Shown in pieces: positions 6,666-29,403 of a DNA stretch of 32,259 nucleotides. Below the pieces are notes generated by a model that ran no database searches, was not told the DNA's origin, and saw only the letters and a list, made by a program, of their open reading frames with translations. Where the stretch lies: the NCBI GenBank assembly GCA_021158405.1, contig JAGGUP010000064.1, positions 1 through 32,259 on the forward strand, written 5' to 3'. How positions within the stretch are numbered: position 1 is the stretch's first letter; each line of letters begins with the position of its first letter. This DNA is from Bacteroidales bacterium (GTDB taxonomy: Bacteria; Bacteroidota; Bacteroidia; Bacteroidales; UBA12170). The position numbers and the translations under genes are program-made.

Positions 6666-7850
6666 ATGCAAGAGTTGTTTACTTTTCTTGATAACCCCTA
6701 TTTGGTCATTTTAGGTGAAAGTTTAAGAAGCTTACCTGGAATTGAGCGTGTGGATCTTTTGTTTTATAATTCTGAAACTGCAAAAACGGAGCTACATAGC
6801 ATTGAGAGAAGTTATCGGATACAACAGCCTGAGCAAAAAGAGTTTGATAAGGATTCTTTGGATATCTTAAATACATTTAGACGAAAGCAAAGCAGCCAAA
6901 ATTGGTTAAGTATAAGCCATATCCCCTATTCAAATAATCAATCGAAAAGCCTTAAGCAAGATCTTTTTTCCGAGTTTGAAAGCCATGTTTTGTGTGTGGC
7001 ATTTCCAAATTCAACGGATTATGCCAAGGATCTTTTTCTCTTTTATTTTCGAAAAAATACAGCCGATTTTGGTTTAAGTCTATCAGATAACGTCTTGACA
7101 ACTTCAAATAAAGCAATTATTGGTCATTTGATATTCAGTAGTTTAAATGCACAACTAAAAACAGTGATGCACAACCAGAAGAGCTTGCGTATGCTTAATG
7201 AGCAAACGCGGTATATTTTGGAGTCAAAACATAAAACGGAGCAAGAGAATTTTAAAATTAAAGAACGGAACAAGGAAAACTTAATTCAACTTACCGAATT
7301 CTTAATCAATGATTTAAGCGCTGATGAAAAAGACGTCTTTTATTTATCTGAAGAAGCAAAGGAATTGATAAGTGAATTTAACGGAAGCGTTTTTGATCTC
7401 AAAAAACAGCTTGGGAAAGCAATGTCATTGGCCAAAACGCTAAATTATGGAACTGGCGTGCATGAGCACATTATAAAAGCAGATTATTTTAACTTTGATA
7501 TTTCCACGATAAAGCAAGAGCATACAATAAACTCTTCTTCAGAAACTCTTGCGGTAGAAAATATCAAGCACCAACACTCCAAAACATTTGATTTTCTAAA
7601 CGAAATGGAACAAGCAGCTCAAACTATACTTAATTTAGGATGGAAACTTACGAGCGCAAATGTGGGGCATAAATTTGAAAAACCTATTACCGCAGCCGCT
7701 ATTTCGGATAAGCTAAAACATCATAGCGATAAGATAATCCGCTTGTTAGAGCAATATCCAGCCAAATGGCTACTCATACGTAAACGATTCCGTCCCCTGC
7801 AAAATGTAATTATTAAGTCAGAAAACAAGCCGTTCGAAAAGGCGAGTTAG
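6666..7850 (+). CDS. Conserved cytoplasmic protein of unknown function with HTH-like C-terminus
   Basis: The protein is 394 residues, starting at the first ATG of the frame. It lacks a signal peptide and membrane helices. I do not recognise a named family. Residues 1-165 look like a mixed alpha/beta globular domain, possibly GAF-like. Residues about 175-260 are highly charged and helical and probably form a coiled coil. The last 70 residues (from about 325, GWKLTSANVG) are basic and helical, with PITAAAISDKL followed by KWLLIRKRF, which resembles a helix-turn-helix or other nucleic-acid-binding segment. A link to transcriptional control is inference only. The GH92 gene starts 70 bp downstream on the same strand, so the two may be co-transcribed. 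Confidence 0.75.
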   Translation: MQELFTFLDNPYLVILGESLRSLPGIERVDLLFYNSETAKTELHSIERSYRIQQPEQKEFDKDSLDILNTFRRKQSSQNWLSISHIPYSNNQSKSLKQDLFSEFESHVLCVAFPNSTDYAKDLFLFYFRKNTADFGLSLSDNVLTTSNKAIIGHLIFSSLNAQLKTVMHNQKSLRMLNEQTRYILESKHKTEQENFKIKERNKENLIQLTEFLINDLSADEKDVFYLSEEAKELISEFNGSVFDLKKQLGKAMSLAKTLNYGTGVHEHIIKADYFNFDISTIKQEHTINSSSETLAVENIKHQHSKTFDFLNEMEQAAQTILNLGWKLTSANVGHKFEKPITAAAISDKLKHHSDKIIRLLEQYPAKWLLIRKRFRPLQNVIIKSENKPFEKAS

Positions 7851-7920
7851 TCGAATTATTCTCATTGAATTAGCAGAATTGTTAAATTTGAGAAAATTTT
7901 CATTCAATCTTTCCTCGACC

Positions 7921-10242
7921 ATGAAATACTTAAGTGTTATTTTTTTTAGTTTATTTTTCGAATTACTAATTGCTCAAGAAAACCCTAATTTTATTCAGTA
8001 TGTAAATCCATTTGTAGGAACTCAGAATATGGGACATACTTTTCCCGGTGCCACTCGCCCATTTGGCATGGTTCAACTAAGTCCCGAAACTGACACACAA
8101 GCTTATGCCATCGATGGAAAATACAATCCAGATGTTTATGCTTATTGTTCAGGTTATCAATACAAAGATTCCACGATAGTCGGTTTTAGTCATACTCATT
8201 TTAGCGGAACTGGTCATTCCGATTTAGGCGATTTTTTGGTAATGCCAACTGTTGGGAAATTATACTTAAATCCGGGAAAAGCGGACACTCCGGAAACGGG
8301 ATACAGATCTCGATTTTCTCATGCAAACGAAATCGCAGAGCCTAATTATTACAAAGTTTATCTTTCTGATTATAAAATAAATGCAGAGTTTACTTCAAGT
8401 ATACATGTAGGTTTTCATCGTTATACTTTCCCAAAAACAGATAGTGCAAATATTGTTCTGGATCTTATGTCGGGCATCTATAATTTTGATGAAAAGAATG
8501 TATGGACATTTGTACGTGTAGAGAATGATACGCTGGTTACGGGATATCGGGAAACTGAAGGTTGGGCAAGAACAAGAACAGTTTATTTTGCACTTTCTTT
8601 TTCCAAACCAATTAAAAACTACGGTCATAAAAAATATGACCAGCAAGTTTATAAGGGTTTTTGGCGCAAATTTGATGAAACAAAGAATTTTCCTGAAATG
8701 GCAGGCCGACAAATTAGAGCTTATTTTCAATTTGATACAGAAGAAAACGAGCCCATTTTATTAAAATTTGCATTGTCTTCAACAAGTACAGAAGGTGCTT
8801 TGAGAAATTTGAAGGCTGAAATTCCACATTGGGATTTTGAACGTACGAAGAAAGAAGGACAAGAAGTTTGGAATGCAGAGCTAGCAAAGATACAAGTGGA
8901 AACATTGACTTTGGCTGATAAAGAAACCTTCTATACGGCATTATATCACAGCTTTTTAAGTCCAATAGAGTTTATGGATGTTGACGGGGCTTACAAAGGC
9001 TTAGACGGAAATATACATCAAGCAAATGATTTTACTAATTACACTATTTTCTCACTATGGGATACCTATCGGGCACTTCATCCCTTGTTTAATTTAATTC
9101 AACCCAGTAGAAATAAAGATATGATGGAATCGCTTTTGGCACATTACGATCAAAGCGTTCATCCAATGTTACCTGTATGGTCGCATTATGCCAACGAAAA
9201 CTGGTGTATGATTGGTTATCATAGTGTTTCTTTATTGGCTGATGCCATGATAAAAAAAGTGCTAAAGCCAGAATCTTATCACAGAGCTCTGGAAGCTTCT
9301 GTTCAATCGGCAAATACAGATTATTATGATGGTATTGGATATTATAAAAAATTAGGTTTCGTCCCTGATGATAAAAATCCATATTCGGTTTCTATAACTC
9401 TGGAATATGCATACGACGACTGGTGTATAACGCAAATGGCTAAGGAAATAAATGAGGCTGGTATTGCTAATGAATTTGAACAAAGAGCCCTCTCCTATCA
9501 AAATGTATTTAATCCGCAAAGAGTATCTATGGCACCTAAATTGGAAAATGGTGAATGGCGCACTAATTTTGATAAGCTAAGCACACACGGTGAAGGATTT
9601 ATAGAAGGAAATGCGTGGAATTATAGTTTATATGTTCCTCAAGATCCAAAAAAATTGATTTCATTAATGGGTGGAAAAAAAGTTTTTGAGCTACACCTAG
9701 ATTCTTTATTTACTCAGCACCTGGATGATCGCTATTTTGCAAATACAGAAGATATTACGCGTGACGGTATTATCGGTTTGTACGTGCATGGAAACGAACC
9801 TGGGCACCATATTGCATTTCTATACAATTGGACAGATGCGCCATGGAAAACACAAGCTCGTGTCCGAATGATAATGAAAACAATGTATTCCAATACAAAA
9901 GATGGCTTATGCGGGAATGATGATGCCGGGCAAATGAGTGCTTGGTTTGTTTTTAATGCCTTGGGATTTTATCCTGTAGCGCCTGGCTCAAATTATTATT
10001 CTATTGGAAGTCCTCTTGTAAAATCGGCAAAACTTTCCTTTGAAAATGGGAATATTCTTCAAATAAAGACCGTTAACCAAAGTTCAGAAAATATTTATAT
10101 TCAAAAGATTACATTGAATAATAAAATAATAAATCGCCTGTATCTAACTCATGATGAGCTGATACAAGGCGGTATATTAGAATATAAAATGGGAAATAAA
10201 CCCAATAAAAAATTAATTCTTCCTCTTTCTAAACCCATTTAA
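7921..10242 (+). CDS. Secreted GH92 alpha-mannosidase
   Basis: The ATG at 7921 is chosen (773 residues) because it opens directly into a signal peptide, MKYLSVIFFSLFFELLIAQ. A TTG-initiated extension to 7879 would hide it. The mature protein starts with FIQYVNPFVGT, and the window shows the family hallmarks: GHTFPGATRPFGMVQLSP, GFSHTHFSGTG, EGNAWNYSLYVP, HGNEPGHH and CGNDDAGQMSAWF. GH92 enzymes are calcium-dependent exo-acting alpha-mannosidases, mostly alpha-1,2, that trim N-glycan or fungal mannan chains; the linkage here cannot be fixed from sequence. The signal has no lipobox cysteine and the protein has no T9SS tail, so a periplasmic location is likely. Its stop codon overlaps the convergent synthase-phosphorylase gene by 14 bp. 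No SusC/SusD pair is present, so this is not a full polysaccharide utilisation locus. Confidence 0.95.
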   Translation: MKYLSVIFFSLFFELLIAQENPNFIQYVNPFVGTQNMGHTFPGATRPFGMVQLSPETDTQAYAIDGKYNPDVYAYCSGYQYKDSTIVGFSHTHFSGTGHSDLGDFLVMPTVGKLYLNPGKADTPETGYRSRFSHANEIAEPNYYKVYLSDYKINAEFTSSIHVGFHRYTFPKTDSANIVLDLMSGIYNFDEKNVWTFVRVENDTLVTGYRETEGWARTRTVYFALSFSKPIKNYGHKKYDQQVYKGFWRKFDETKNFPEMAGRQIRAYFQFDTEENEPILLKFALSSTSTEGALRNLKAEIPHWDFERTKKEGQEVWNAELAKIQVETLTLADKETFYTALYHSFLSPIEFMDVDGAYKGLDGNIHQANDFTNYTIFSLWDTYRALHPLFNLIQPSRNKDMMESLLAHYDQSVHPMLPVWSHYANENWCMIGYHSVSLLADAMIKKVLKPESYHRALEASVQSANTDYYDGIGYYKKLGFVPDDKNPYSVSITLEYAYDDWCITQMAKEINEAGIANEFEQRALSYQNVFNPQRVSMAPKLENGEWRTNFDKLSTHGEGFIEGNAWNYSLYVPQDPKKLISLMGGKKVFELHLDSLFTQHLDDRYFANTEDITRDGIIGLYVHGNEPGHHIAFLYNWTDAPWKTQARVRMIMKTMYSNTKDGLCGNDDAGQMSAWFVFNALGFYPVAPGSNYYSIGSPLVKSAKLSFENGNILQIKTVNQSSENIYIQKITLNNKIINRLYLTHDELIQGGILEYKMGNKPNKKLILPLSKPI

Positions 10243-13200
10243 TTAAAGGGAAATCCTCCTGATAAGCCAGATTTTTAGATTTGGGACTCAAACGGAATAC
10301 ATAATCGTATACGCCAGTTCTTTCAACTGCAATGGCACATGAATATAAAATATTTCCATTAGGCAAACTTTCTACTTTTAGCTCCTCTTTATAGATAATA
10401 TACTTTATATCACCATCTTCTATTTCCCCGAACAAAATTTCAACACGAACCTCTTCTGGCAACAATTCGGCTAAATTCACTTCGATGCGCGCTATAAAAA
10501 TATCTCCTAGACTTAATGTTTGTTCTTGATCAGTTTGAGGTAACTCTACAGAAACAATACTGATATTCTCCCATTTAATCGCTGTTTTCTCTTTCCATTT
10601 TGCCAATTCCACTGCTAGTTTAAAGTGATCTGCTTGAAAAGCTTTACTACTGGTAAATAACTTATTGTAAAAACGATCAAAATAATCATCGAGCATACGT
10701 TTCATGGTAAAACGAGGCGCAATTTGAGTAAATGTATTTTTTATATGAGTAACCCATTTATCAGAGACCTTACTCGTATTTTTCTCATAATAAGTTCTCA
10801 AAATTTCTGACTCAAGTTTCGAATAAATTATTTCTACATCGCGCATATTCTGCATGTCCTGTTTCAGATAGGTTCTACCCTCTTCAAGTGCCCAACCTGC
10901 TCCATCTTTATAACCTTCGGCCCACCATCCATCAAGGACAGAGAAATTCATAACCCCATTCATTACAGCCTTTTCTCCACTAGTACCAGAAGCTTCCAAA
11001 GGTCGGGTTGGCGTGTTCAACCACACATCAACTCCGCTTACCAAATACTTTGCCAATTGCATATCGTAATTTTCGACAAATAAAACTTTTCCAATAAAGT
11101 CGGGCATTTTAGAAACTTCAATAACTCTTTTTATCAGATCTTGACCCGCTTTATCGTGTGGATGTGCCTTTCCTGCAAATAGAAACTGGATAGGTTGCGT
11201 TTTATTACTCACCAATTTTCGTAATCGATCTAAATTAGTAAATAATAAATGTGCTCTTTTGTAAGTAGCAAAACGACGTGCAAATCCAATAGTTAAGGCC
11301 TTTGGATCCATATTTTCAACTACTTGAACAATATAAGCCGGATTTTCTTGTCTCTGAGTTAATTCTTCTGTCAATCGAATGCGTAAATAATCGAATAATA
11401 ACTTTTTCTGATTGAAATGAATCATGCAAATACGCTCATTTGGAACCTCATCTATTTTTTTCCACAGATCTTCATCGCTTTGATTTTTCAAAAAATCTTC
11501 GCCAAAAAGTTCGTGATGGAACTGCTGCCAGGCTTTCGAAGCCCATGTAGAATAGTGTACACTGTTGGTCACATATCCAATATGAAGTTCATCAGGATAA
11601 TAACCTTCGTACAGAGATGCAAACATTTTCTGACTCACACGACCATGAATACGGCTTACTCCATTCATTTCTTGCGACATTCGGGCAGCAAGAACGCTCA
11701 TCGAGAACTTCTCACCAGCCTGATTAGAATTCCATCTTCCAAGATTCATAAATTCATCCCAGCTCAACTGTAAACGATCGGCATAATGTAGAATGTATTT
11801 TCTTAAAATGCCTTCCTCAAAAGCATCGTGTCCAGCAGGAACAGGTGTATGGGTTGTAAAGAGTGTGCTCGCCCTTACAACTTCTTTCGCTTCATTGAAA
11901 CTTAATTTCTCATCTTGAATGAGATTTTTCAATCTCTCCAATGAGTTGAAAGCGGCATGACCTTCATTTGCATGATAAATATCTGGTTTCAAACCTAATG
12001 CTTCAATTAGTCGAATACCACCTACACCCAATAAGAGCTCTTGTTTTAACCGGTTTTCCCAATCACCGCCATAAAGTTGGTGAGTTACTTTACGATCTTC
12101 CTCCGAATTTTCTTCGACATCTGTATCAAGCAAATAAAGTGGAATTCGACCAACCTGCGCCACCCATATTTTAGCCATCATTTTTCTTCCCGGCAAAGCA
12201 ATGCTAATTACCGCCCATTCGCCATTAGGAAAACGTACAGGCTCTACTGAAAGTTGAGAGAATTTTTGCGGGTTATAAATATCCAATTGATCACCTTCAA
12301 GAGATAATTTCTGTTTAAAATAACCATAGCGATACAATAAGCCGATACCAATCATATTGATATTTGAATCGGAAGCTTGTTTTAAATAATCTCCGGCTAA
12401 AATTCCCAATCCCCCTGAATATATTTTCAAGCTATCGTCGATGCCATATTCCATACTAAAATAAGCAATTTGTTGTTTTGGCTTATTTTTAGCTTTGGCC
12501 ATGTAAGTTTCGAACTTAGTTAAGACATTTTCGTAATCGACCATAAATTCCGGATTGGTCAAAAATCTTTCAAAACGAGCTTGTGAGATTTTTTCAAGCA
12601 TGGCCACAGGGTTCTTTTCTAATTTAAACCAGAGATCGCCACCCAATTCCTCAAAAAAGTCCTGAGCGCAATAATTCCACGACCACCAAAGATTTTTTGT
12701 AAGCTCTGCTAGCTTGTTCAATTTCTTTGGCACAACAGGGCGAACCAATACTTTTTTCCAAGAGGGCTTCTGTGATACACTTAAAGAAGTAGATTTTACT
12801 AAATTGAATTGAGTTTGGCTTAAAATATCCTTGCTTCTATATTGAGCTTTTTCTATTGCTAATTCGTAGGTTTCCTTATAGTATTTAATAAACTTTTTCC
12901 ATTGAGCTTCTTTCGCTATTCGAGTCGCATCAATTTTGGCATTTTTTATTTGATTATTATCTGCCAAGTAAAAACTTTCCATAACTTCAGAAATCCGACT
13001 GATAACTTCCTCATCATTTGAATAGCCACGAGGAACAACTATTAATCCTTTGTTCTCCTCAAAATTAGCTTGTACCCATCGGCCAAACCCAGACAAATTG
13101 GTGGTGACAGAAGGAACTCCAAAAGCAACACTCTCTAATGGAGTATATCCCCAAGGTTCGTAATAAGATGGAAAGACACTCAAATCGAAAGCCGATAAAA

Positions 13201-14452
13201 GGTCATAGTAAGTGGTATTAAAAATACCATCTTGTCCATTTAAATAAGCAGGCACTCCAATAACCGTAAGTAAATCATTCTCCGCATTATACATATGAAG
13301 TTCATTCATTTTGTTTCGGATGGGATCATGAATTTTATCGGTTAATTGGTGCGTAAACCGATTACTGGTAAAATTCATTTCTTCTGATTCTAAAGCCTTT
13401 GCAAGTTCCAAATTAGGTCCTTTAATACCACCGGGAATCATTAAAAATGCTATAACTCTTCTCTTAGTAAGTCTTGTTTTTAACTGATTAAGTGCTTCAA
13501 GGAAAACATCGATTCCTTTATTTCTGTACTCATAACGACCGCTGATGCCAATCAATAAAGTATCTTTGGCGAAAGAAATATCAGTCATTCTTCCGGCTAC
13601 TTTTAGCAATAAATCCCTACTTTCAACACGTTGTTGTTCCAGGTTTTCTTTTCCAAAAGTGACAAATTTTCCATCAAATCCATTTGGAGTGACCACATCT
13701 ACGACTTTGCCTAAGAAATGTTTACATTCAATATTGGTGACTTCACTAACGGTTGTAAACATATCCGCATTTTCTGCTGCTAATTTTTCAATCGAATGTT
13801 TGGCCACTACCGAAAACTCGCGAGCGACTAACTCCGGATTGTATCTTTCAATATGATCATAAAGAGGTAAACCATTTCCTGCAATAGAACGACCTAAAAC
13901 AGTTGCATGGGTAGTAAATACGGTAGCAACGGAAGGATTCTTTTGTTTTAAATAGAGAATAGCAGAACCTGTCATCCATTCATGAAAATGAGCAATTATT
14001 CCATCTTGATAGACTCCAAAATGTTTCTGAAAACTATCGATTACACGTCCAACAGCATATCCAAACAGAGCAGGTTCGATATAATCCCATCCGCCTGAAA
14101 TGGAATCTAATTTATAAGATTCCCACCAAGAAGCAAAAATTTTATCCTTTTCACTAAAATAGGGTTTAAAATCAATAAGGATTGCAATTGGTTTTCCTTT
14201 AATATTCCAGTGTCCTATGCGAAAATTAATACCCTCAGAATGAGCCTGCAATACCCATTCAGGGTACAATAATTTATCTTCTGTAAATTCCGGGTTATTA
14301 CTAGTTTCCATCCAAACATCCGGACCGATAAAGAAATAATTATCTCCATATTCTGGTTGAATGGAAGGAGCTTTAGAGGCTAATACAGTATGTATTCCTC
14401 CAATTTTATTACAAACTTCCCAAGCAGTTTCAAATATATATTTTGATTTCAT
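10229..14452 (-). CDS. Bifunctional GT3 glycogen synthase - GT35 alpha-glucan phosphorylase fusion
   Basis: A 1407-residue fusion. Residues 1 to about 540 resemble the eukaryotic-type GT3 glycogen synthase: IGGIHTVL near the N-terminus, AHFHEWMTG (154-162), TTHATVLGR (180-188), VTPNGFD (254-260), the sugar-nucleotide segment GRYEYRNKG (305-313) and the acidic pair in YEPWGYTPLE (E432 and E440). GT3 enzymes normally use UDP-glucose. From about 575 a short-type alpha-glucan phosphorylase follows, with a DUF3417-like start (NLWWSWNY), YFSMEYG (664-670), HANEGHAAF (828-836), HTPVPAGHDAF and the PLP lysine K1161 in GTSGEKAVMNG. Residues 1295-1407 form a beta-rich tail. The enzyme should both elongate and phosphorolyse alpha-1,4-glucan in the cytoplasm. 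It is last in the glucan cluster, 243 bp from the GH57 gene, with an inverted repeat in that gap. Confidence 0.95.
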   Translation of the reverse strand: MKSKYIFETAWEVCNKIGGIHTVLASKAPSIQPEYGDNYFFIGPDVWMETSNNPEFTEDKLLYPEWVLQAHSEGINFRIGHWNIKGKPIAILIDFKPYFSEKDKIFASWWESYKLDSISGGWDYIEPALFGYAVGRVIDSFQKHFGVYQDGIIAHFHEWMTGSAILYLKQKNPSVATVFTTHATVLGRSIAGNGLPLYDHIERYNPELVAREFSVVAKHSIEKLAAENADMFTTVSEVTNIECKHFLGKVVDVVTPNGFDGKFVTFGKENLEQQRVESRDLLLKVAGRMTDISFAKDTLLIGISGRYEYRNKGIDVFLEALNQLKTRLTKRRVIAFLMIPGGIKGPNLELAKALESEEMNFTSNRFTHQLTDKIHDPIRNKMNELHMYNAENDLLTVIGVPAYLNGQDGIFNTTYYDLLSAFDLSVFPSYYEPWGYTPLESVAFGVPSVTTNLSGFGRWVQANFEENKGLIVVPRGYSNDEEVISRISEVMESFYLADNNQIKNAKIDATRIAKEAQWKKFIKYYKETYELAIEKAQYRSKDILSQTQFNLVKSTSLSVSQKPSWKKVLVRPVVPKKLNKLAELTKNLWWSWNYCAQDFFEELGGDLWFKLEKNPVAMLEKISQARFERFLTNPEFMVDYENVLTKFETYMAKAKNKPKQQIAYFSMEYGIDDSLKIYSGGLGILAGDYLKQASDSNINMIGIGLLYRYGYFKQKLSLEGDQLDIYNPQKFSQLSVEPVRFPNGEWAVISIALPGRKMMAKIWVAQVGRIPLYLLDTDVEENSEEDRKVTHQLYGGDWENRLKQELLLGVGGIRLIEALGLKPDIYHANEGHAAFNSLERLKNLIQDEKLSFNEAKEVVRASTLFTTHTPVPAGHDAFEEGILRKYILHYADRLQLSWDEFMNLGRWNSNQAGEKFSMSVLAARMSQEMNGVSRIHGRVSQKMFASLYEGYYPDELHIGYVTNSVHYSTWASKAWQQFHHELFGEDFLKNQSDEDLWKKIDEVPNERICMIHFNQKKLLFDYLRIRLTEELTQRQENPAYIVQVVENMDPKALTIGFARRFATYKRAHLLFTNLDRLRKLVSNKTQPIQFLFAGKAHPHDKAGQDLIKRVIEVSKMPDFIGKVLFVENYDMQLAKYLVSGVDVWLNTPTRPLEASGTSGEKAVMNGVMNFSVLDGWWAEGYKDGAGWALEEGRTYLKQDMQNMRDVEIIYSKLESEILRTYYEKNTSKVSDKWVTHIKNTFTQIAPRFTMKRMLDDYFDRFYNKLFTSSKAFQADHFKLAVELAKWKEKTAIKWENISIVSVELPQTDQEQTLSLGDIFIARIEVNLAELLPEEVRVEILFGEIEDGDIKYIIYKEELKVESLPNGNILYSCAIAVERTGVYDYVFRLSPKSKNLAYQEDFPLIKWV

Positions 14453-14695: not shown

Positions 14696-16180
14696 TTAAG
14701 GCAATCGTGCTATTTTCTTTCTCAAATCTTCTTTATAACTTTCTATTTCCTTACTCGATAAAGCATTGGAAGTCTCTCGGTATTCTTGAATCTTATTAAG
14801 CTCCTTCTTTCCAATTATTTTCATCATTTTATCGCGAATTGCTTGATCGCTTTCAAAAAACAGAGCCGACAGTTCTCCTAAACTCAAGTCTTTCACCATT
14901 TTTTTAAGCTTCACATTTGTAAACTTCCCAAGCATGTTAAAAACATCTTCTTGAGGAGATTGCAAGCTTTCAATATCACTTTCTTGTCTGGATTTTCCTT
15001 CTCTTTCTAAGCGGATATAAAAATCGGAAAGTACATTCATAAAATTTATAAATGCTTCATAAGGAGAGCCGTAGGGTGTAAAATACTGATGTACAGCACC
15101 ATCGGAAAACCACTTGGTACACATATAATAAAAATGATCACTGGCTTGTAATTTAAGCCAATCCTTTTGCAAGCTGGGATCTTGACAATTCCGCATGGCT
15201 ACTTCTATCGCATACAGTTTGTCAAAAGCTTCATCTTGTATTTCATTACCTAACCACGCTGTTAAATCTCTTTCTTCATCAGCCCAACTAATTGCGTTTG
15301 GAACATGAATAGCAGCAATTGGCTGATATTCTTTGCTTACTTCTGATGGCGTTTTAAAACATAAATTGGGTTTTTTCAATATCTTTTCAGGTAAATTCCG
15401 CATAAATTCAAAAATCCCTGTTTCAGTCCACTGATGTTCTCCAAAGGTTTCATAATCCATATACAAATTAGCAACCTGTTCTTTTGGATTTAGTTGGCCT
15501 AACCAATCCGAAAATTTATCTGTTGTCAAAGGCCATTCATTCCAATTTTGGTTGGAAAAGCGAAAAGCAATATCGTCGCTAAATTGAAAATTTCTCAACA
15601 ACACTTTTAAACGAGGATTTATAGCGTTTGTATATACAAAATTCGGGCTTTTCCATCCTAAAACGTGCTTTGCACCTTCTGTTAACATGGTTTTAAATCC
15701 CATTTCAGCTATGGTCTCTCCTATTTCATCAGAGTAAATTAATTCTGTATTTCGAAATGTTTGTGGACTTACACCAAAAAGTTCTTTTATCTTTTCCTGA
15801 TGCATTTTAATTTGCCTGACAAATTCCTCCTTACTCTTCATCCCTGACAAGGAATGAGCATAAGTTTCGGCTAGAAATTCTACATTTCCTGTCTGTGCCA
15901 ATTGCTTAAAACTAGCTAAAACTTGGGGCGTATATTCCTGAAATTGATCCAAAGCAGATCCACTTATAGAAAAACTAACTTTAAAAGCTTTGCCATGTTT
16001 TTGAATTAATTCGAGTAACAAATTATTCATAGGAATGTAGCTTTTTGCAGCTACACGTTCCATGATCGATTTATTTAAATAATCATCGTAATAATAATGA
16101 TCATTACCTAAGTTAAAAAAACGATACTTTTTTAAACGATAAGGTTGATGAACCTGAAAATAAAGACAAACTGATTGCAT
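14696..16180 (-). CDS. GH57 alpha-amylase-like glycoside hydrolase
   Basis: The 494-residue protein begins with the GH57 signature HQP (residues 11-13, VCLYFQVHQPYRLKKYRFF). The catalytic nucleophile is E146 in FRNTELIYSDEIG and the acid/base is D242 in YMDYETFGEHQW, with AETYAHS (105-110) as a further family motif. There is no signal peptide, so it acts on cytoplasmic glucan. GH57 contains alpha-amylases, 4-alpha-glucanotransferases and branching enzymes. The length and N-terminus match the Bacteroidota amylase-like group better than the longer branching enzymes, but transferase activity is possible. The start codon lies 5 bp after the stop of the GT4 gene, so the two are tightly coupled. 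The C-terminal 100 residues are helical and charged. Confidence 0.9.
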   Translation of the reverse strand: MQSVCLYFQVHQPYRLKKYRFFNLGNDHYYYDDYLNKSIMERVAAKSYIPMNNLLLELIQKHGKAFKVSFSISGSALDQFQEYTPQVLASFKQLAQTGNVEFLAETYAHSLSGMKSKEEFVRQIKMHQEKIKELFGVSPQTFRNTELIYSDEIGETIAEMGFKTMLTEGAKHVLGWKSPNFVYTNAINPRLKVLLRNFQFSDDIAFRFSNQNWNEWPLTTDKFSDWLGQLNPKEQVANLYMDYETFGEHQWTETGIFEFMRNLPEKILKKPNLCFKTPSEVSKEYQPIAAIHVPNAISWADEERDLTAWLGNEIQDEAFDKLYAIEVAMRNCQDPSLQKDWLKLQASDHFYYMCTKWFSDGAVHQYFTPYGSPYEAFINFMNVLSDFYIRLEREGKSRQESDIESLQSPQEDVFNMLGKFTNVKLKKMVKDLSLGELSALFFESDQAIRDKMMKIIGKKELNKIQEYRETSNALSSKEIESYKEDLRKKIARLP

Positions 16181-16185
16181 ATTTA

Positions 16186-17490
16186 TTATTTATCTAATTC
16201 TATATTATTTAACAGTACACTTTCATAAGCTGCTTTAACTTGTTTTGCCGCATGTTCCCATTTTAAATTATCCACTTCTTCAACTCCGTTCTTAATAAAC
16301 ATTTCAGATAATGAATTGTAGTGAAGTAGTCCATAAATAGCATCTGCTATTCCTTCAACATCCCAAAAATCAACTTTTAAGGCATTGGTAAGAACTTCTG
16401 CAACCCCCGATTGTTTAGAAATTACCACAGGCACATTCGATCGCATAGCTTCCAATGGAACTAGCCCAAAAGGCTCAGATACAGAGGGCATTACAAACAC
16501 ATCCGATAATTGGAACATTTTATCTACTTCGGCTCCTTTTAAGAAACCTGTAAAATGAAATTTAGTAGCTATTCTCAATTTAGCAACTCGCTTAATTAAT
16601 TCTTCGAACATATCTCCATTTCCAGCCATTACAAAACGAACATTATCATCTCTTTCCAGGATTAATTTGGCAGCTTCCACAAAGTATTCGGGACCTTTTT
16701 GGAAAGTAAGTCGCCCTAAAAAAGTAACTACTTTTTCTTTAACGGAACGATTGAGCTGCAGATTATCCTTATCAACAGGCTCAATGGCATTATGAATCGT
16801 TTGAATTTTTGCCGGATCAATCCCATAGTGCTTGATAACAATATCACGTGTAAGGTTACTTACTGTAATAACTCTATCAGCCTCTTTCATCCCTTTTTGC
16901 TCAATACCAAAAACTTCCGTATTGATTCTATCTTCTCCTGCGCGATCGTATTCGGTGGCATGCATATGAACAACCAGAGGTTTGCCGGAAACTTCTTTGG
17001 CAGCAATTCCTGCCATATAAGTCAGCCAATCGTGTGCATGGATAATATCAAAATCATTTTGTGCAGCAATACTTGCACCAACCATTGCATAGCGGGCAAC
17101 TTCCTCCATCAAATTTTTACCATATTTACCCGAGAAAGTATATTTCTCACCCAAAATAAGATGCTCTTTTTCTTTAATTGAATGCTTTACATCTTCATGT
17201 ATTTTGGCAAAATCTTCAGGATCTATATAAGGTCTTATATTTGAACCTATTTCGAGATAAGTTAACTTATTCCAAAAATCTTGAATATGTTTTTGTTTAT
17301 AATTCACGGGAATATCACTTGCATTCACAATACGAGCAGCTCGTTGATCTTCATCTCCAAATGCTTTTGGAACAACAAAAATCATTTCCACATCGTGTTT
17401 CAGAAGACCTTTGGTTAAGCCATAAGAAGCCGTACCTAAACCACCTGTAATATGTGGAGGAAATTCCCAACCAAACATCAATACTTTCAT
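16186..17490 (-). CDS. GT4-family glycosyltransferase, glycogen synthase-like
   Basis: This 434-residue GT-B enzyme opens with FGWEFPPHITGGLGTASYGL, the glycine-rich acceptor loop shared with starch and glycogen synthases. It continues with HAHDWLTYMAG (151-161), the donor-site pair R260 and K265 in GRLTFQKGPE, and the E-x7-E motif of family 4 (E339 and E347 in SEPFGLVPLEAMRS). It probably transfers glucose from a nucleotide sugar to an alpha-glucan or primer in the cytoplasm. Related genes occur beside debranching enzyme, GH57 and the GT3-GT35 fusion in other Bacteroidota, which supports a role in glycogen building, but the donor is not proven. It lies between the debranching enzyme (84 bp upstream) and the GH57 gene (5 bp downstream). 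Confidence 0.9.
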   Translation of the reverse strand: MKVLMFGWEFPPHITGGLGTASYGLTKGLLKHDVEMIFVVPKAFGDEDQRAARIVNASDIPVNYKQKHIQDFWNKLTYLEIGSNIRPYIDPEDFAKIHEDVKHSIKEKEHLILGEKYTFSGKYGKNLMEEVARYAMVGASIAAQNDFDIIHAHDWLTYMAGIAAKEVSGKPLVVHMHATEYDRAGEDRINTEVFGIEQKGMKEADRVITVSNLTRDIVIKHYGIDPAKIQTIHNAIEPVDKDNLQLNRSVKEKVVTFLGRLTFQKGPEYFVEAAKLILERDDNVRFVMAGNGDMFEELIKRVAKLRIATKFHFTGFLKGAEVDKMFQLSDVFVMPSVSEPFGLVPLEAMRSNVPVVISKQSGVAEVLTNALKVDFWDVEGIADAIYGLLHYNSLSEMFIKNGVEEVDNLKWEHAAKQVKAAYESVLLNNIELDK

Positions 17491-17494
17491 GAGC

Positions 17495-17578
17495 CTATAT
17501 TTTTATTAAGCCTGTCACCTGATATGCGTTGACGTCGCCATCCTTTTGCGTTAACATATTTATTCTGGATAGTTTCAT
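17495..17578 (-). CDS. Possible 27-codon ORF filling the debranching enzyme-GT4 gap
   Basis: An ATG at 17578 overlaps the TGA stop of the debranching enzyme as ATGA. The frame runs 27 codons (MKLSRINMLTQKDGDVNAYQ and seven more) to a TAG that ends 4 bp before the GT4 start. The fit at both ends is what a translationally coupled small gene would show. The middle of the stretch is also clearly more GC-rich than neighbouring gaps. Against it, 27 open codons can occur by chance. A second frame (N-A-K-G-W-R-R-Q-R...) is also open across the region and stops in an ATGA overlap with the GT4 start. No family recognised. Confidence 0.3.
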   Translation of the reverse strand: MKLSRINMLTQKDGDVNAYQVTGLIKI

Positions 17579-19539
17579 ATATGCTTAGATTTAAAAGTGT
17601 TAATTTCAATTTGATACATCAAGCTTAAAATAGCGGAAACACTCCAGGCTTGTGAAACACCACCTTTTCCTTCGTGGGGTGGATCTCCATTGTAAAGCTC
17701 CGAAACACTCCCAATTCCATGCTCCACCATCACTTCTTCGAAACGATCTAAAATAGTTTGTATATCACCCAATCCGCTTTTTCCATATAAATGAAATAAA
17801 ACATCCGTATAAGGAATTAACAGCCAAGGCCATACAGCACCATTGTGATAAGAATTATCTCTGATTTCGATATTTCCTTCGTATTTGGATTTATATTTTG
17901 GATTTTTTGGAGATAAACCCCGAATACCACGAGGAGTTAACAATTCTTGTTTTACAACATCAAGAATAAATTTCTTCAAAGAATCAGCCATGGGTGAAAA
18001 TGGCAATGATGCTGCAATTAACATATTAGGACGAACATCCCATGAAATCTCCTTCTCGTTTGAATAATCAGCCAAATAATTATGCTTAATATCTGTAAAC
18101 GTTTCGAGAAAGCTTTTTCCAATCAAATCCAAGGAAAGATTAATTGTTTCGTCGCTTGTCTTTTTTCCAAATTGCGATTCCAAAGATTGGTATAAAGCAA
18201 TAGCATTGTACCAAAGCGCATTGATTTCAACAGCATATCCAGAACGTGGTGTAACTGCTTTGTCGAATAGAATGGCATCCATCCAAGTTAATGGTACATT
18301 TTCTTTAGCAGCATAAATAAGTCCATTATCAGTCATATGAACACCCAATTCATCGTTTCCATGTTGATAAGCTTCCAAAACAGCTAACATTGGTTTCTTA
18401 TATTTCCTCCAAACCTTCCGAGCATCTTTTGTGAAATAAATATATTTCTGTAAAGCCCAAAAAAACCACAAGGAAGTATCTGCAGAAAAATAATCTATTT
18501 TAGAAGCGGTGCTTCTATTAGGAAAAAAACCATTCTTTAGTTTTGAAACCCAGGTATCCATAATACTGATAAATCTCTTTTCCTCTCCCAAAGCCAAAGT
18601 TAACCCCGGAAGGGAAATAAAAGTATCACGTCCCCAGCTGCCATACCACGGTAATCCTGCAGCAATCTTGGTATTCCCGTCTTGTTCAATTAAGAATTGC
18701 TGAGCTGCATTTTTTAAATTATTCTTAAAACTATCGCGAGGAATACGTTTTTTCACTTGCTGATTAAATTGGCGAGTAAAAGTTGTAGGCGTTCCTTCTT
18801 CTATGCTCGCCTGCAATATAACGCTCTCTCCCTTTTTGATAGTAAACTCAAAATCACCGGGAGCTAATAAATCTTCATGCCCTTTGTATCCTCGTTTTAT
18901 ATCTTTCATATATTCAAAATCGAGATACCAATCCGGATGATGAACATATTCTACTTCTTTTGAAAATTGTAAATACAAAGGAGTAAAACCAGGATATATT
19001 TGCATTTTAGTTCCCTTATTAACTTCTTCGTAGGAAGTATCCGCTTTTGTATTCGCTTTAGTAAGATGGTGAATATTTCTATAAGCGAGCAGTGGTTTGA
19101 TTCGGAAAATAGTCTTAGAACTGGCTTCTAACAAAGTATATTTCACAAACATACTCGCCTTTTTATCACTAAAAATACTTTCAACAGAAAGAACAACTCC
19201 ACCCACACGATAAGTAATTTTAGGAATAGGATCAGTAATATATTCGCGCATATATTTATGTCCTTTTGGATTATACTCGCCCCCTTTGTACTTATGTATA
19301 CCTAAATTAAATGAGGCGTCGTGTTGTATTACTGTCAAATCTAAAGAGGAGAGTAACACATGATTCTCATTACCAAAATTAGGTTGAGGAACTACAAGAA
19401 GACCGTGATATTTCCTTGTATTACAACCAATTACTGTACTACTAGCATAAGAGCCACTTCTGTTAGTTCTAACAAACTCCTTTTGTAAAGCGAAACTTAA
19501 ATTGGTTAAATGTTTTTTGTCAAAATGAATGTAACTCAT
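17575..19539 (-). CDS. Glycogen debranching enzyme, amylo-alpha-1,6-glucosidase (GH133)
   Basis: The 654-residue protein has an N-terminal beta-rich GDE domain (residues about 15-260, starting EFVRTNRSGSYASSTVIGCN and TRKYHGLLV). A C-terminal (alpha/alpha)6 catalytic domain follows. Key motifs are LPWYGSWGRDTFISLPGL with D305, NSYHNGAVWPWLLIPY, and SELYNGDPPHEGKGGVSQAW near the C-terminus, where the second acidic residue lies. The enzyme hydrolyses alpha-1,6-linked glucosyl residues at branch points after phosphorylase has shortened the outer chains. This fits the phosphorylase module encoded downstream. There is no signal peptide. It is the first gene of the cluster, with a good -7 box about 54 bp upstream. 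Confidence 0.94.
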   Translation of the reverse strand: MSYIHFDKKHLTNLSFALQKEFVRTNRSGSYASSTVIGCNTRKYHGLLVVPQPNFGNENHVLLSSLDLTVIQHDASFNLGIHKYKGGEYNPKGHKYMREYITDPIPKITYRVGGVVLSVESIFSDKKASMFVKYTLLEASSKTIFRIKPLLAYRNIHHLTKANTKADTSYEEVNKGTKMQIYPGFTPLYLQFSKEVEYVHHPDWYLDFEYMKDIKRGYKGHEDLLAPGDFEFTIKKGESVILQASIEEGTPTTFTRQFNQQVKKRIPRDSFKNNLKNAAQQFLIEQDGNTKIAAGLPWYGSWGRDTFISLPGLTLALGEEKRFISIMDTWVSKLKNGFFPNRSTASKIDYFSADTSLWFFWALQKYIYFTKDARKVWRKYKKPMLAVLEAYQHGNDELGVHMTDNGLIYAAKENVPLTWMDAILFDKAVTPRSGYAVEINALWYNAIALYQSLESQFGKKTSDETINLSLDLIGKSFLETFTDIKHNYLADYSNEKEISWDVRPNMLIAASLPFSPMADSLKKFILDVVKQELLTPRGIRGLSPKNPKYKSKYEGNIEIRDNSYHNGAVWPWLLIPYTDVLFHLYGKSGLGDIQTILDRFEEVMVEHGIGSVSELYNGDPPHEGKGGVSQAWSVSAILSLMYQIEINTFKSKHI

Positions 19540-19638: not shown

Positions 19639-19769
19639 TTTAACAAAAAAATAATATGCAAACGATTGCTGTTCAGAAGAAAAACATTTTCTACATCAAG
19701 GGCATTAATAATCTTGAATGAAAATGAAAGACAAGAGAATTGTTTAGCTTTGTGTGGAAAAAAACACCC

Positions 19770-20258
19770 ATGAATATTACACTCATTCAAACTGGAGGAA
19801 CTATTGATAAAGACTATCCTAAATCCATAAATGGCTGGGCTTTTGAAATTGGAGATCCTGCTTTTTTAAGGATAATTAAAAAGCTGCCTAATACGATTAA
19901 ATGGGAAACGATTCCTTTGCTAAAAAAAGACAGTACTGAATTAACATCAGAAGATAGAACGGAAATTGCAAAAGCTTGTCAAAAAACATCCAATGCTAAG
20001 ATTATTATAACTCATGGAACCGATACCTTATTAGAAACGGCTTTAGCATTGAGTTCCATAAAGAATAAAACAATCATACTTACGGGTTCGATGCGACCTG
20101 AACGTTTTAGTAATTCGGATGCGGATCTTAACTTTGGTATGGCTTTGGCTGGTGTTCAAACACTTCCATCGTGTATTTATATTGCCATTCAAGGAATAAT
20201 AAGCCCTTATAATAAACTGGGAAGAAATTTAGAAACGGGACTTTATTTTATTAAATAA
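19770..20258 (+). CDS. Half-size asparaginase (N-terminal asparaginase domain only)
   Basis: I choose the ATG at 19770 (162 residues, MNITLIQTGGTIDKDYPK), because a TTG start at 19740 adds ten residues before the first beta-strand. The protein keeps the catalytic elements of the bacterial asparaginase N-terminal domain: T11 in TGGTID, T84-D85 in THGTDTLLETA, TGSMRP (105-110) and a possible active-site lysine, K149, in YNKLGRN. Normal asparaginases have about 330 residues and a C-terminal domain that completes the active site of a neighbouring subunit. Here the frame ends cleanly after LETGLYFIK, so this is a short family type, not an obvious truncation. It may hydrolyse asparagine or a related amide, but this is uncertain. 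The PLP enzyme starts 8 bp downstream. Confidence 0.85.
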   Translation: MNITLIQTGGTIDKDYPKSINGWAFEIGDPAFLRIIKKLPNTIKWETIPLLKKDSTELTSEDRTEIAKACQKTSNAKIIITHGTDTLLETALALSSIKNKTIILTGSMRPERFSNSDADLNFGMALAGVQTLPSCIYIAIQGIISPYNKLGRNLETGLYFIK

Positions 20259-27987: not shown

Positions 27988-29403
27988 ATGCAAATCGATA
28001 CTTTAAGTTCAGTACGTAAGGCTTTAATACTAAATCTTGATTCAACCGTTTACGGCACTTTTGCTGAAATTGGAGCAGGACAAGAAGTGGCCAGAACCTT
28101 TTTTCAAGCCGGTGGCGCCTCTGGAACCGTAGCCAAAACCATATCGGCATATGATATGGAAATGAGTGATGCACTATATGGCAAAGAGCCTTCTAGTCGC
28201 TATGTTTCAAAAAATCGTCTTCTCAAAATGCTTAAACAGGAAGCTACCGAATTAACAAAAACTCTTGGAAAATCTATAAGAAAAGGTACTCGCTTTTTTG
28301 TTTTTGCTGATACAGTGACAACCATCAATTTTGCAAAAGACAAAAAAGGACATGGCTGGATGGGCGTGCGATTTCAAATTGATCCAAAAGGAGAAGCCAA
28401 CGAAGTAATACTGCATGTTCGTTTGCTTGAGAATACAGCAATCCAACAACAGGAAACTTATGGAGTTTTAGGCACTAACCTTTTGTACGCTTGCTTCAAT
28501 CATTATAAACGTCCCAACCTTTTTCTTCAATCTTTGATGGATTCTTTATTACCTGATCAATTAGAAATAACTATGATTGAGATGTCAGGTCCGGAGTTAA
28601 ATTATGTCGATAACCGATTATTAGGTGTTCAATTGGTTAAAAACGGTATGGCAAAAGCGATTATTTTCGATCACAGCGGCAAAGTACAAACGCCTGAGGA
28701 AATGCTCTATAAAAAGAACGTTTTGGCTTTTAGGGGTAGTTTTAGACCTATTACTTATGTGGGTCTCGATATGATTGAGAGTAGTTATTCTCTTTTCAAA
28801 AGAGATGCCGATTATGACAAAAGTAATACTTTAGCACTTTGTGAGATCACTTTAAATAACTTACTTTCGGAAGGAGAATTCTCTGAGCAAGACTTTCTTG
28901 ATCGGGTTGATATATTAAATGGTATAGGACAAAATGTTATGGTGTCTAACTATCGCGAATATTACAAACTTGTCTCCTATTTTTCACAATTTCAGATAAA
29001 AAATTTAAGAATAGTCATCGGAGTTCTAACATTAAAAAAAGTGCTCGATAAAAGCTATTACAGCCATTTAAAAGGAGGTGTTTTAGAAGCTTTCGGAAAA
29101 TTGTTTACGGATAATATGAAACTCTACGTCTATCCGGCTTTACAAAAAGATCTTGAAAATCTTATGGATTCAACAAGTATTCCACGAAGTCACGATTTAA
29201 ATTTCATATACAATTACCTAATCCAAAATCGAAAAATTATCGATATCAAAGAGGTAAACAAGGAAAGACTGCATATTTTTAGCAGTCAGGTTTTAAAACT
29301 TATCCATGAAAAAAATCCCGAATGGGAAACTATGGTTCCTGACTATGTTTCAGAACAAATAAAACAAAAGAATCTTTTTGGTTATCAGCCAGTGAAAAAA
29401 TAA
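27988..29403 (+). CDS. Conserved cytosolic protein of unknown function
   Basis: The protein is 471 residues and has no signal peptide, membrane helix or beta-barrel pattern. I recognise the sequence type from memory: relatives in marine Bacteroidota are sometimes labelled 'TonB-dependent receptor', which this sequence does not support. The N-terminal block is striking and probably the active or binding site: GTFAEIGAGQEVARTFF (23-39), GGASGTVAKTISAYDMEMSD (42-61) and RYVSKNRL (71-78). It holds glycine-rich loops that could bind a nucleotide or phosphate. A second half, with NPEWETMVPDYVSEQIK near the end, is helical. It lies 40 bp after the hybrid kinase but is probably not functionally linked to it. 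No function can be given. Confidence 0.8.
   Translation: MQIDTLSSVRKALILNLDSTVYGTFAEIGAGQEVARTFFQAGGASGTVAKTISAYDMEMSDALYGKEPSSRYVSKNRLLKMLKQEATELTKTLGKSIRKGTRFFVFADTVTTINFAKDKKGHGWMGVRFQIDPKGEANEVILHVRLLENTAIQQQETYGVLGTNLLYACFNHYKRPNLFLQSLMDSLLPDQLEITMIEMSGPELNYVDNRLLGVQLVKNGMAKAIIFDHSGKVQTPEEMLYKKNVLAFRGSFRPITYVGLDMIESSYSLFKRDADYDKSNTLALCEITLNNLLSEGEFSEQDFLDRVDILNGIGQNVMVSNYREYYKLVSYFSQFQIKNLRIVIGVLTLKKVLDKSYYSHLKGGVLEAFGKLFTDNMKLYVYPALQKDLENLMDSTSIPRSHDLNFIYNYLIQNRKIIDIKEVNKERLHIFSSQVLKLIHEKNPEWETMVPDYVSEQIKQKNLFGYQPVKK

Follow-up and report, generated by a model that had tools for sequence, protein, structure and literature searches.

Bacterial enzymes that hold two alpha-glucan activities on one chain include MalQ-GlgB of Neisseria, GlgA-GlgB of Criblamydiaceae and Waddliaceae, and TreS-Mak, and none of the fusions named in the portion of PMC11046441 available to us pairs a glycogen synthase with a glycogen phosphorylase, enzymes that work in opposite directions. 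The nearest counterparts of such a combination are the eukaryotic glycogen synthases of family GT3 (yeast Gsy2, human GYS1), the short-type phosphorylases of family GT35, and the separate GT3 and GT35 genes of Bacteroides and Prevotella. Here we describe a gene that encodes both enzymes in a single chain of 1407 amino acids, located at 10229..14452 on the minus strand of a 32,259-nucleotide stretch of DNA (the window) from a Bacteroidales bacterium (assembly GCA_021158405.1, contig JAGGUP010000064.1). The product is confirmed as a GT3 glycogen synthase joined through a linker to a short-type GT35 alpha-glucan phosphorylase, with both active sites intact, as a first-pass annotation of the sequence had proposed. 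We read it, with a probability of roughly 0.7, as a bifunctional glycogen turnover enzyme in which two GT-B modules would fold and act independently of each other on a flexible leash. No paper on a GT3-GT35 fusion was found among the matches listed in a literature search that had subscription papers and preprints outside its scope, and the fusion goes unmentioned in the accessible parts of PMC5702140, PMC11204068 and PMC11206854.

The reading frame is unbroken and opens with an ATG; frame 1 of the plus strand is riddled with stop codons across the same interval. The GT3 synthase half (residues 1-542, 12827..14452) was defined by PF05693 (Glycogen_syn; E = 7.3e-101, 339.1 bits against a curated cut-off of 27), by alignment to Gsy2 and by structural matches. 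It is followed by a linker of variable sequence (residues 543-568, 12749..12826), by DUF3417 and the GT35 core (residues 569-1300, 10553..12748), and by a C-terminal beta domain (residues 1301-1407 with the stop codon, 10229..10552), the last assigned from the secondary structure of the second predicted model and from alignment to the end of 9l6i. Pfam places PF05693 first, then PF11897 (DUF3417, residues 574-675) and PF00343 (Phosphorylase), and the NCBIfam model for short-type phosphorylases, TIGR02094, matches residues 662-1264 with 827.7 bits (cut-off 191.7); the difference from other members of that type is the synthase fused in front. The Thermococcales maltodextrin phosphorylase model NF041129 reaches 739.7 bits over residues 574-1396, below its cut-off of 1500. 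The fusion is the sole match to PF05693 and the sole match to PF00343 in its own genome. Compared with a copy from the same genus (L076), both the GT3 half (dN 0.110, dS 1.26) and the phosphorylase core (dN 0.083, dS 1.37) are under purifying selection.

Two trivial origins were rejected. A chance reading frame or an assembly chimera is ruled out by the architecture shared with relatives and with named records: 20 of 20 long reading frames fetched from relatives hold both halves, which also bears out the earlier statement that such fusions occur in Bacteroidota. A degenerate half in the window protein is ruled out by its motifs, by residue conservation and by the purifying selection described above.

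Residue conservation was followed across 76 fused loci, 32 split pairs, 11 phosphorylase-only loci and 10 GT3-only loci (nine of the latter of a long type described below). This set was chosen and motif-seeded, so that it is no census and its ratios are not frequencies; the wider scan started from two phosphorylase motifs and covers 80 of 589 matches, and loci without a phosphorylase could not appear in it. In the alignment to Gsy2, E432 (codon 13157..13159, on the minus strand like the other codons given here) corresponds to E509 and is glutamate in 74 of the 76 fused loci, with one aspartate and one gap, and E440 (13133..13135) corresponds to E517 and is kept in 75, with one gap; we take these two glutamates of Gsy2 to be catalytic. 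R306 (13535..13537) and K312 (13517..13519) align with R320 and K326, presumably donor residues, and each is kept in 74 fused loci, the remainder being two gaps for R306 and one arginine and one gap for K312. The motifs AHFHEWMTG and VTPNGFD are both present. In the phosphorylase half, the pyridoxal phosphate (PLP) lysine K1161 (10970..10972) lies in EASGTSGEK, aligned with EASGTGNMK of the classical phosphorylase 4l22, and is kept in 74 of 76 fused loci, with two gaps. The same count holds for R1060 and K1065, which are invariant in alignment A1 and which, matched by eye to the classical phosphorylase motif, we take to be R569 and K574 in rabbit numbering. Equivalents of E432, E440 and K1161 are all kept in 32 of 32 split pairs.

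At all 29 checked positions, 63 of the 76 fused loci agree with the window protein. Of the 13 that do not, L161, L163, L169 and L178 are truncated by the end of their contig, L168 contains a stretch of N in the assembly, and the other eight (L138, L140, L143, L157, L170, L172, L173, L180) are truly different. L143 carries H157N. Among the 32 split synthases, this histidine is replaced by N or D in 25. In the phosphorylase, H875 is replaced by M in the Chitinophaga copy and by N in the three whose records are assigned to Deltaproteobacteria or Syntrophus (L157, L170, L172, L180). A separate ATG start for the phosphorylase half, with GTG and TTG excluded, was also considered: the window protein has no methionine between residues 491 and 618 and hence no such start, and 53 of the 76 fused loci have a methionine within residues 530-575.

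The synthase half shares with Gsy2 and GYS1 the GT-B fold, the E-x7-E pair and the equivalents of R320 and K326, at 30-32% identity in structural alignments, and in structure comparison it matches these two and a third synthase (Z 35.5-39.8). The fused protein differs from them in carrying a phosphorylase behind the synthase and in two shortened or depleted stretches. From P340 to H368 there are 29 residues in the window; 68 of 70 fused copies have 27-36 here, and all nine long stand-alone GT3 proteins have 79-80. The 21 residues before W518 contain one arginine in the window and 0-2 in 61 of 70 fused copies, against 3-5 in long GT3 and six in Gsy2 (both counts are without the four contig-end loci, L168 and L173). 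Split synthases have the short insert too (27-33 residues in 31 of 32, 55 in one). GYS1 is described, in the part of PMC9287172 available to us, as having a tetramerization domain and a regulatory helix whose arginine clusters bind glucose-6-phosphate, and we infer from the alignments that the stretches absent from fused GT3 are the eukaryotic tetramerization-helix insert and this arginine helix. By sequence, the fused GT3 is a stripped-down synthase without the eukaryotic insert and with the arginine helix largely lost. Because the helix and the insert of about 80 residues are absent, eukaryote-style control would be unlikely. The label eukaryote-like, given to the synthase at first, thus suits its catalytic core and not its regulation, for which two features are missing. 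Certain genomes from this order and from the class (L089-L097; G278, G372, G448 and others) carry another, long stand-alone GT3 of 605-652 residues; it has the insert of about 80 residues and an arginine-richer helix, resembles a fully eukaryote-type synthase, and is the only GT3 match in G278, G372 and G448.

The stretch Y529-W565, which spans the linker, is 33-41 residues long in the 76 fused loci (37 in the window) and variable in sequence. Two overlapping pieces of the protein were modelled with AlphaFold. Residues 1-1200 gave a mean predicted local distance difference test score (pLDDT) of 84.5 and a predicted template modelling score (pTM) of 0.55, and residues 208-1407 gave 86.5 and 0.70; pLDDT falls below 50 at linker residues 544-568 in the first model and 543-568 (336-361 of the model) in the second. 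The phosphorylase makes up about 0.53 and 0.70 of the two pieces, and the pTM values are roughly those to be expected from one placed and one unplaced module. These models, truncated monomers built on 43 alignment rows, predict two folded modules whose position relative to each other is not confidently set, joined by a disordered linker of about 26 residues. For the phosphorylase half, the structural counterpart is the solved glycogen phosphorylase of Segatella copri, with Z 44.6 to PDB 20yr and 38.6 to 9l6i; identity to 9l6i is 50% in the Foldseek alignment.

The first-pass annotation had called the fusion unusual, which its distribution contradicts. Among 60 related genomes, own genome included, GT3 (PF05693) was found in 53, and in 45 of these it lies in a reading frame of more than 1000 amino acids (40 of 1343-1891 and five of 1061-1183 residues), long enough for both halves; fusion in this set was judged by reading-frame length and counted by hand. 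The other eight have GT3 in a reading frame of 547-570 residues, with a phosphorylase directly downstream in seven; for the eighth (G248, locus L101), no phosphorylase was found within its 19-kb locus. GT3 was likewise matched in 226 of 247 genomes drawn from the order, a draw listed in part, so that the fused share is taken from the 60-genome draw. The names of the nearest named loci point to Bacteroidales as the window's order. A draw of 198 genomes from the phylum yielded nine GT3 matches, seven of them over the cut-off, and a fused-length frame in the window's genome only; no other listed genome of that draw was marked as belonging to the window's order, and it is uninformative on frequency within the order. 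All three sets are draws, and 49 further regions were hand-chosen by reading-frame length or GT3 type. Among the matches listed, fused copies labelled as lying outside Bacteroidales come from Chitinophaga rupis, a Flavobacteriales metagenome-assembled genome (MAG), Planctomycetota, Bdellovibrionales, Deltaproteobacteria (two) and Syntrophus MAGs; the Chitinophaga rupis copy is an isolate record, and those from other phyla derive from MAGs, for which wrong binning is possible. Judged from these sequences, the fused form is the usual arrangement among relatives, and the genera Bacteroides and Prevotella are the exception.

In the split pairs, the synthase and phosphorylase genes belong to the same families and keep the order and strand of the fusion, as two reading frames separated by -1 to 168 nt (32 loci). 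They come from Bacteroides, Prevotella and Muribaculaceae (for example Bacteroides faecis, L193, and Prevotella bivia, L154). In a FastTree phylogeny of the phosphorylase (112 rows), all 32 split rows and four phosphorylase-only rows form one clade (support 100), sister to a fused Labilibacter copy (95); this tree is without the four contig-end loci, L168, L173, L172 and L176, uses four fused rows from other phyla as its root, with no outgroup beyond the fused group, and carries a long-branch warning for L171 with L174 and for L155 with L157. The same nesting was recovered in a GT3 tree of 67 chosen rows (19 split) rooted on the long stand-alone GT3 (99 and 99) and in a more careful GT3 tree of 44 rows, 13 of them split (100/99 and 99/93), and in both GT3 trees the other-phylum fused copies fall outside the Bacteroidota rows. 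Since the split rows form one clade nested among fused rows in the trees of both halves, the sequences are best read as one fission event, in the common ancestor of Bacteroides, Prevotella and Muribaculaceae. In approximately unbiased (AU) tests with all fused rows held together, the opposite direction of change was not rejected (p 0.0998, and p 0.199 on a further set of 43 chosen rows with 13 of the 32 split loci). Together with the phosphorylase-only loci, the split clade supports the separability of the modules. In ten phosphorylase-only genomes of unstated completeness (L176 lay outside these), a search for GT3 gave no match in seven and, in the other three, a GT3 of 509-554 residues that is not linked to the phosphorylase. 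The synthase half was seen to be lost more often than the phosphorylase half, although seeding on phosphorylase motifs would miss the reverse.

The fusion is the last gene of a row on one strand. Upstream of it lie a GH57 glycoside hydrolase (14696..16180, minus; PF03065, E = 3.5e-76), a GT4 glycosyltransferase (16186..17490, minus; PF00534, with the nearest NCBIfam model, TIGR02149, below its cut-off) and an amylo-alpha-1,6-glucosidase, or debranching enzyme (17575..19539, minus; PF06202 and PF12439), which we take to be family GH133; the successive gaps in the order GH133-GT4-GH57-fusion are 84, 5 and 243 nt. The available text of PMC11046441 applies the number GH133 to a debranching enzyme in the same way and describes an archaeal gene cluster in which GH133 and GH57 are accompanied by a GT4, whose role it leaves open. 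Sixty-two fused loci include 6 kb or more of upstream sequence: in 44 of them all three genes lie upstream on the same strand, and in seven all three lie downstream. Among the 30 split loci with that much flank, none has them next to the pair, a further difference between these pairs and the fusion. Four phosphorylase-only loci (L179, L186, L188, L194) keep GH133-GT4-GH57, and their genomes have no GT3 match. The GT4, conserved between the debranching enzyme and GH57, is thus kept in rows without a GT3 match, and it may make the primer or act as a second synthase. On the other side, a GH92 family gene (7879-10242) lies in convergent orientation to the fusion, the 3' ends of the two genes overlapping by 14 bases; it recurs in two loci of the same genus (L072 and L076). 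The window further holds a short asparaginase-like reading frame (19740-20258, 172 amino acids, TTG start) that matches the N-terminal asparaginase domain only, and two reading frames of 394 (6666-7850) and 471 residues (27988-29403) with no Pfam or NCBIfam match. Between 9900 and 19900, neither promoter-like matches (30, against 38.9 in shuffled sequence) nor terminator-like matches (6, against 5.3) were in excess.

As for the sugar donor, GlgC (TIGR02091) was over its cut-off in none of the 60 genomes, own assembly (96.3% complete) included, and weaker matches in 59 of 60 are of the wider nucleotidyltransferase kind; this agrees with the earlier statement that no ADP-glucose enzyme is nearby, and the GlgC that marks the classical bacterial GlgC-GlgA pathway is not found. 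UDP-glucose is the likely donor, on the strength of homology and of UDP-glucose-dependent transfer published for Prevotella bryantii (Lou et al. 1997, as cited in the accessible parts of PMC4432691 and PMC7935935). A search for PF01704, another UDP-glucose pyrophosphorylase family, gave no match, and its controls gave none either. The bacterial GlgB model is over its cut-off in none of the 60 genomes, and matches above 190 bits occur in 43, 40 of them in reading frames of 662-814 residues (hand count); such sub-cut-off matches fit the GBE1-type enzyme reported for B. thetaiotaomicron, whose branching enzyme is described as orthologous to human GBE1 in the available part of PMC4236520. Eight of ten other members of the genus carry such a match.

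Under the turnover reading, the GT3 module would add glucose from a nucleoside diphosphate glucose, most likely UDP-glucose, to the non-reducing ends of the glucan, and the short-type GT35 module would release glucose as glucose-1-phosphate with the help of PLP. The tether would hold synthase and phosphorylase at a ratio of 1:1 on the same glycogen particle, beside the debranching enzyme of the row. Net direction would be set by metabolites (UDP-glucose versus inorganic phosphate) and not by eukaryote-style allostery, which is probable because the glucose-6-phosphate-binding arginine helix and the eukaryotic insert are absent.

A neutral operon fusion, in which neighbouring genes were joined and the link gives nothing beyond co-expression, agrees with most of this scheme, denies only a benefit of the tether, and is a serious possibility that we nevertheless rate below even odds. 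It is favoured by the split pairs, in which separate proteins suffice for Bacteroides and Prevotella, by the existence of phosphorylase-only rows and by the variable linker sequence. On the other hand, the fused form persists in most GT3-bearing relatives and in several phyla with a linker stretch confined to 33-41 residues, and if the join were purely neutral, more breaks might be expected than the one split clade observed.

Turnover could also amount to a glycogen cycle built into the protein: since the halves are permanently co-localised and the synthase is without eukaryote-style allostery, synthesis and breakdown would run at once, as a glucose-1-phosphate buffer and an ATP-spilling valve, and Bacteroides and Prevotella would later have cut the enzyme, scattered the row and gained separate storage control. 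We consider this extended scheme unlikely. The accessible part of PMC4432691 reports glycogen cycling for Fibrobacter and suspects that such cycling underlies energy spilling in mixed communities of rumen microbes; its entry for P. bryantii is heat production only, the type of cycling not being determined.

Both halves might instead work in synthesis, which appears distinctly unlikely. The phosphorylase reaction is reversible, and glycogenin makes the primer in eukaryotes; the phosphorylase half would run in reverse from glucose-1-phosphate (for example supplied via maltose phosphorylase) or make a glycogenin-like primer, and GT3 would extend it from UDP-glucose. Reversibility of phosphorylase is noted in the available text of PMC11046441, and that of PMC4432691 reports that P. 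bryantii glycogen rises on maltose, together with maltose phosphorylase activity. Against this, the debranching enzyme and GH57 in the same row fit breakdown.

The first-pass annotation had suggested that glucan is handed over between the halves, the chain end passing from one active site to the other so that synthesis and trimming fix its length. A covalent link between two intact sites and the narrow range of linker lengths are in keeping with such a ruler, but the predicted disordered linker, the lack of a confident mutual placement of the modules in both overlapping models (pTM 0.55 and 0.70) and the absence of the link from a whole large clade, where the halves are separate genes, make it very improbable.

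Several observations weigh against the turnover reading with independent modules. The pTM values come from truncated monomers and are compatible with the modules adopting a fixed arrangement when the protein is oligomeric or glycogen-bound. GalU was not over its cut-off in the own genome and was so in one of 31 genomes in a wider search; because GalU is missing as well, the argument from absent GlgC to UDP-glucose, made at first, is weak, and the donor remains plausible on the grounds given above. In the own genome, 96.3% complete as it is, the best match to the 675-residue branching enzyme found in other members of the genus is only 28% identical, perhaps through an assembly gap; the suggested search for glgC and glgB turned up neither a GlgC over cut-off nor a close branching enzyme. 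Finally, synthase halves with an altered or missing active site exist. L138 has R188C, K312R and E432D, and L140 has R188E and E158D; the synthase sites of both look decayed from their sequences. In L173 (7416-10877), the reading frame of the fusion lacks residues 258-518, the second half of the synthase, in frame and with the phosphorylase intact, which may be real decay or misassembly. Loss of key residues in one half, named beforehand as evidence against two working enzymes, is thereby seen in isolated cases, namely these three and the four rows without GT3.

The least probable account is that one half is mainly structural, the phosphorylase being the working enzyme and oligomer scaffold and GT3 a decaying or accessory domain: the three altered synthases, the four GT3-free genomes that keep row and phosphorylase, and a PLP lysine kept in every covering locus (74 fused, 32 split, 11 phosphorylase-only) fit it, but phosphorylase-half losses would be missed by the seeding of the scan, L101 has a short GT3 with no phosphorylase in its locus, H875 varies in four copies, and the window GT3 is under strong purifying selection, with E432 and E440 kept in nearly all fused loci.

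Each half of the turnover enzyme is ordinary; the tether and its history are of moderate interest. Bacteroidales count among the major bacteria of the gut and of the environment, and Bacteroidetes glycogen synthesis without GlgC is left open in the accessible part of the review PMC10395257; the fused enzyme, as the usual form of the group, would give that pathway a concrete core. The fused, split and phosphorylase-only lineages make up a natural experiment on why opposing enzymes are tethered, and they raise the question of whether glycogen cycling may be built into a protein.

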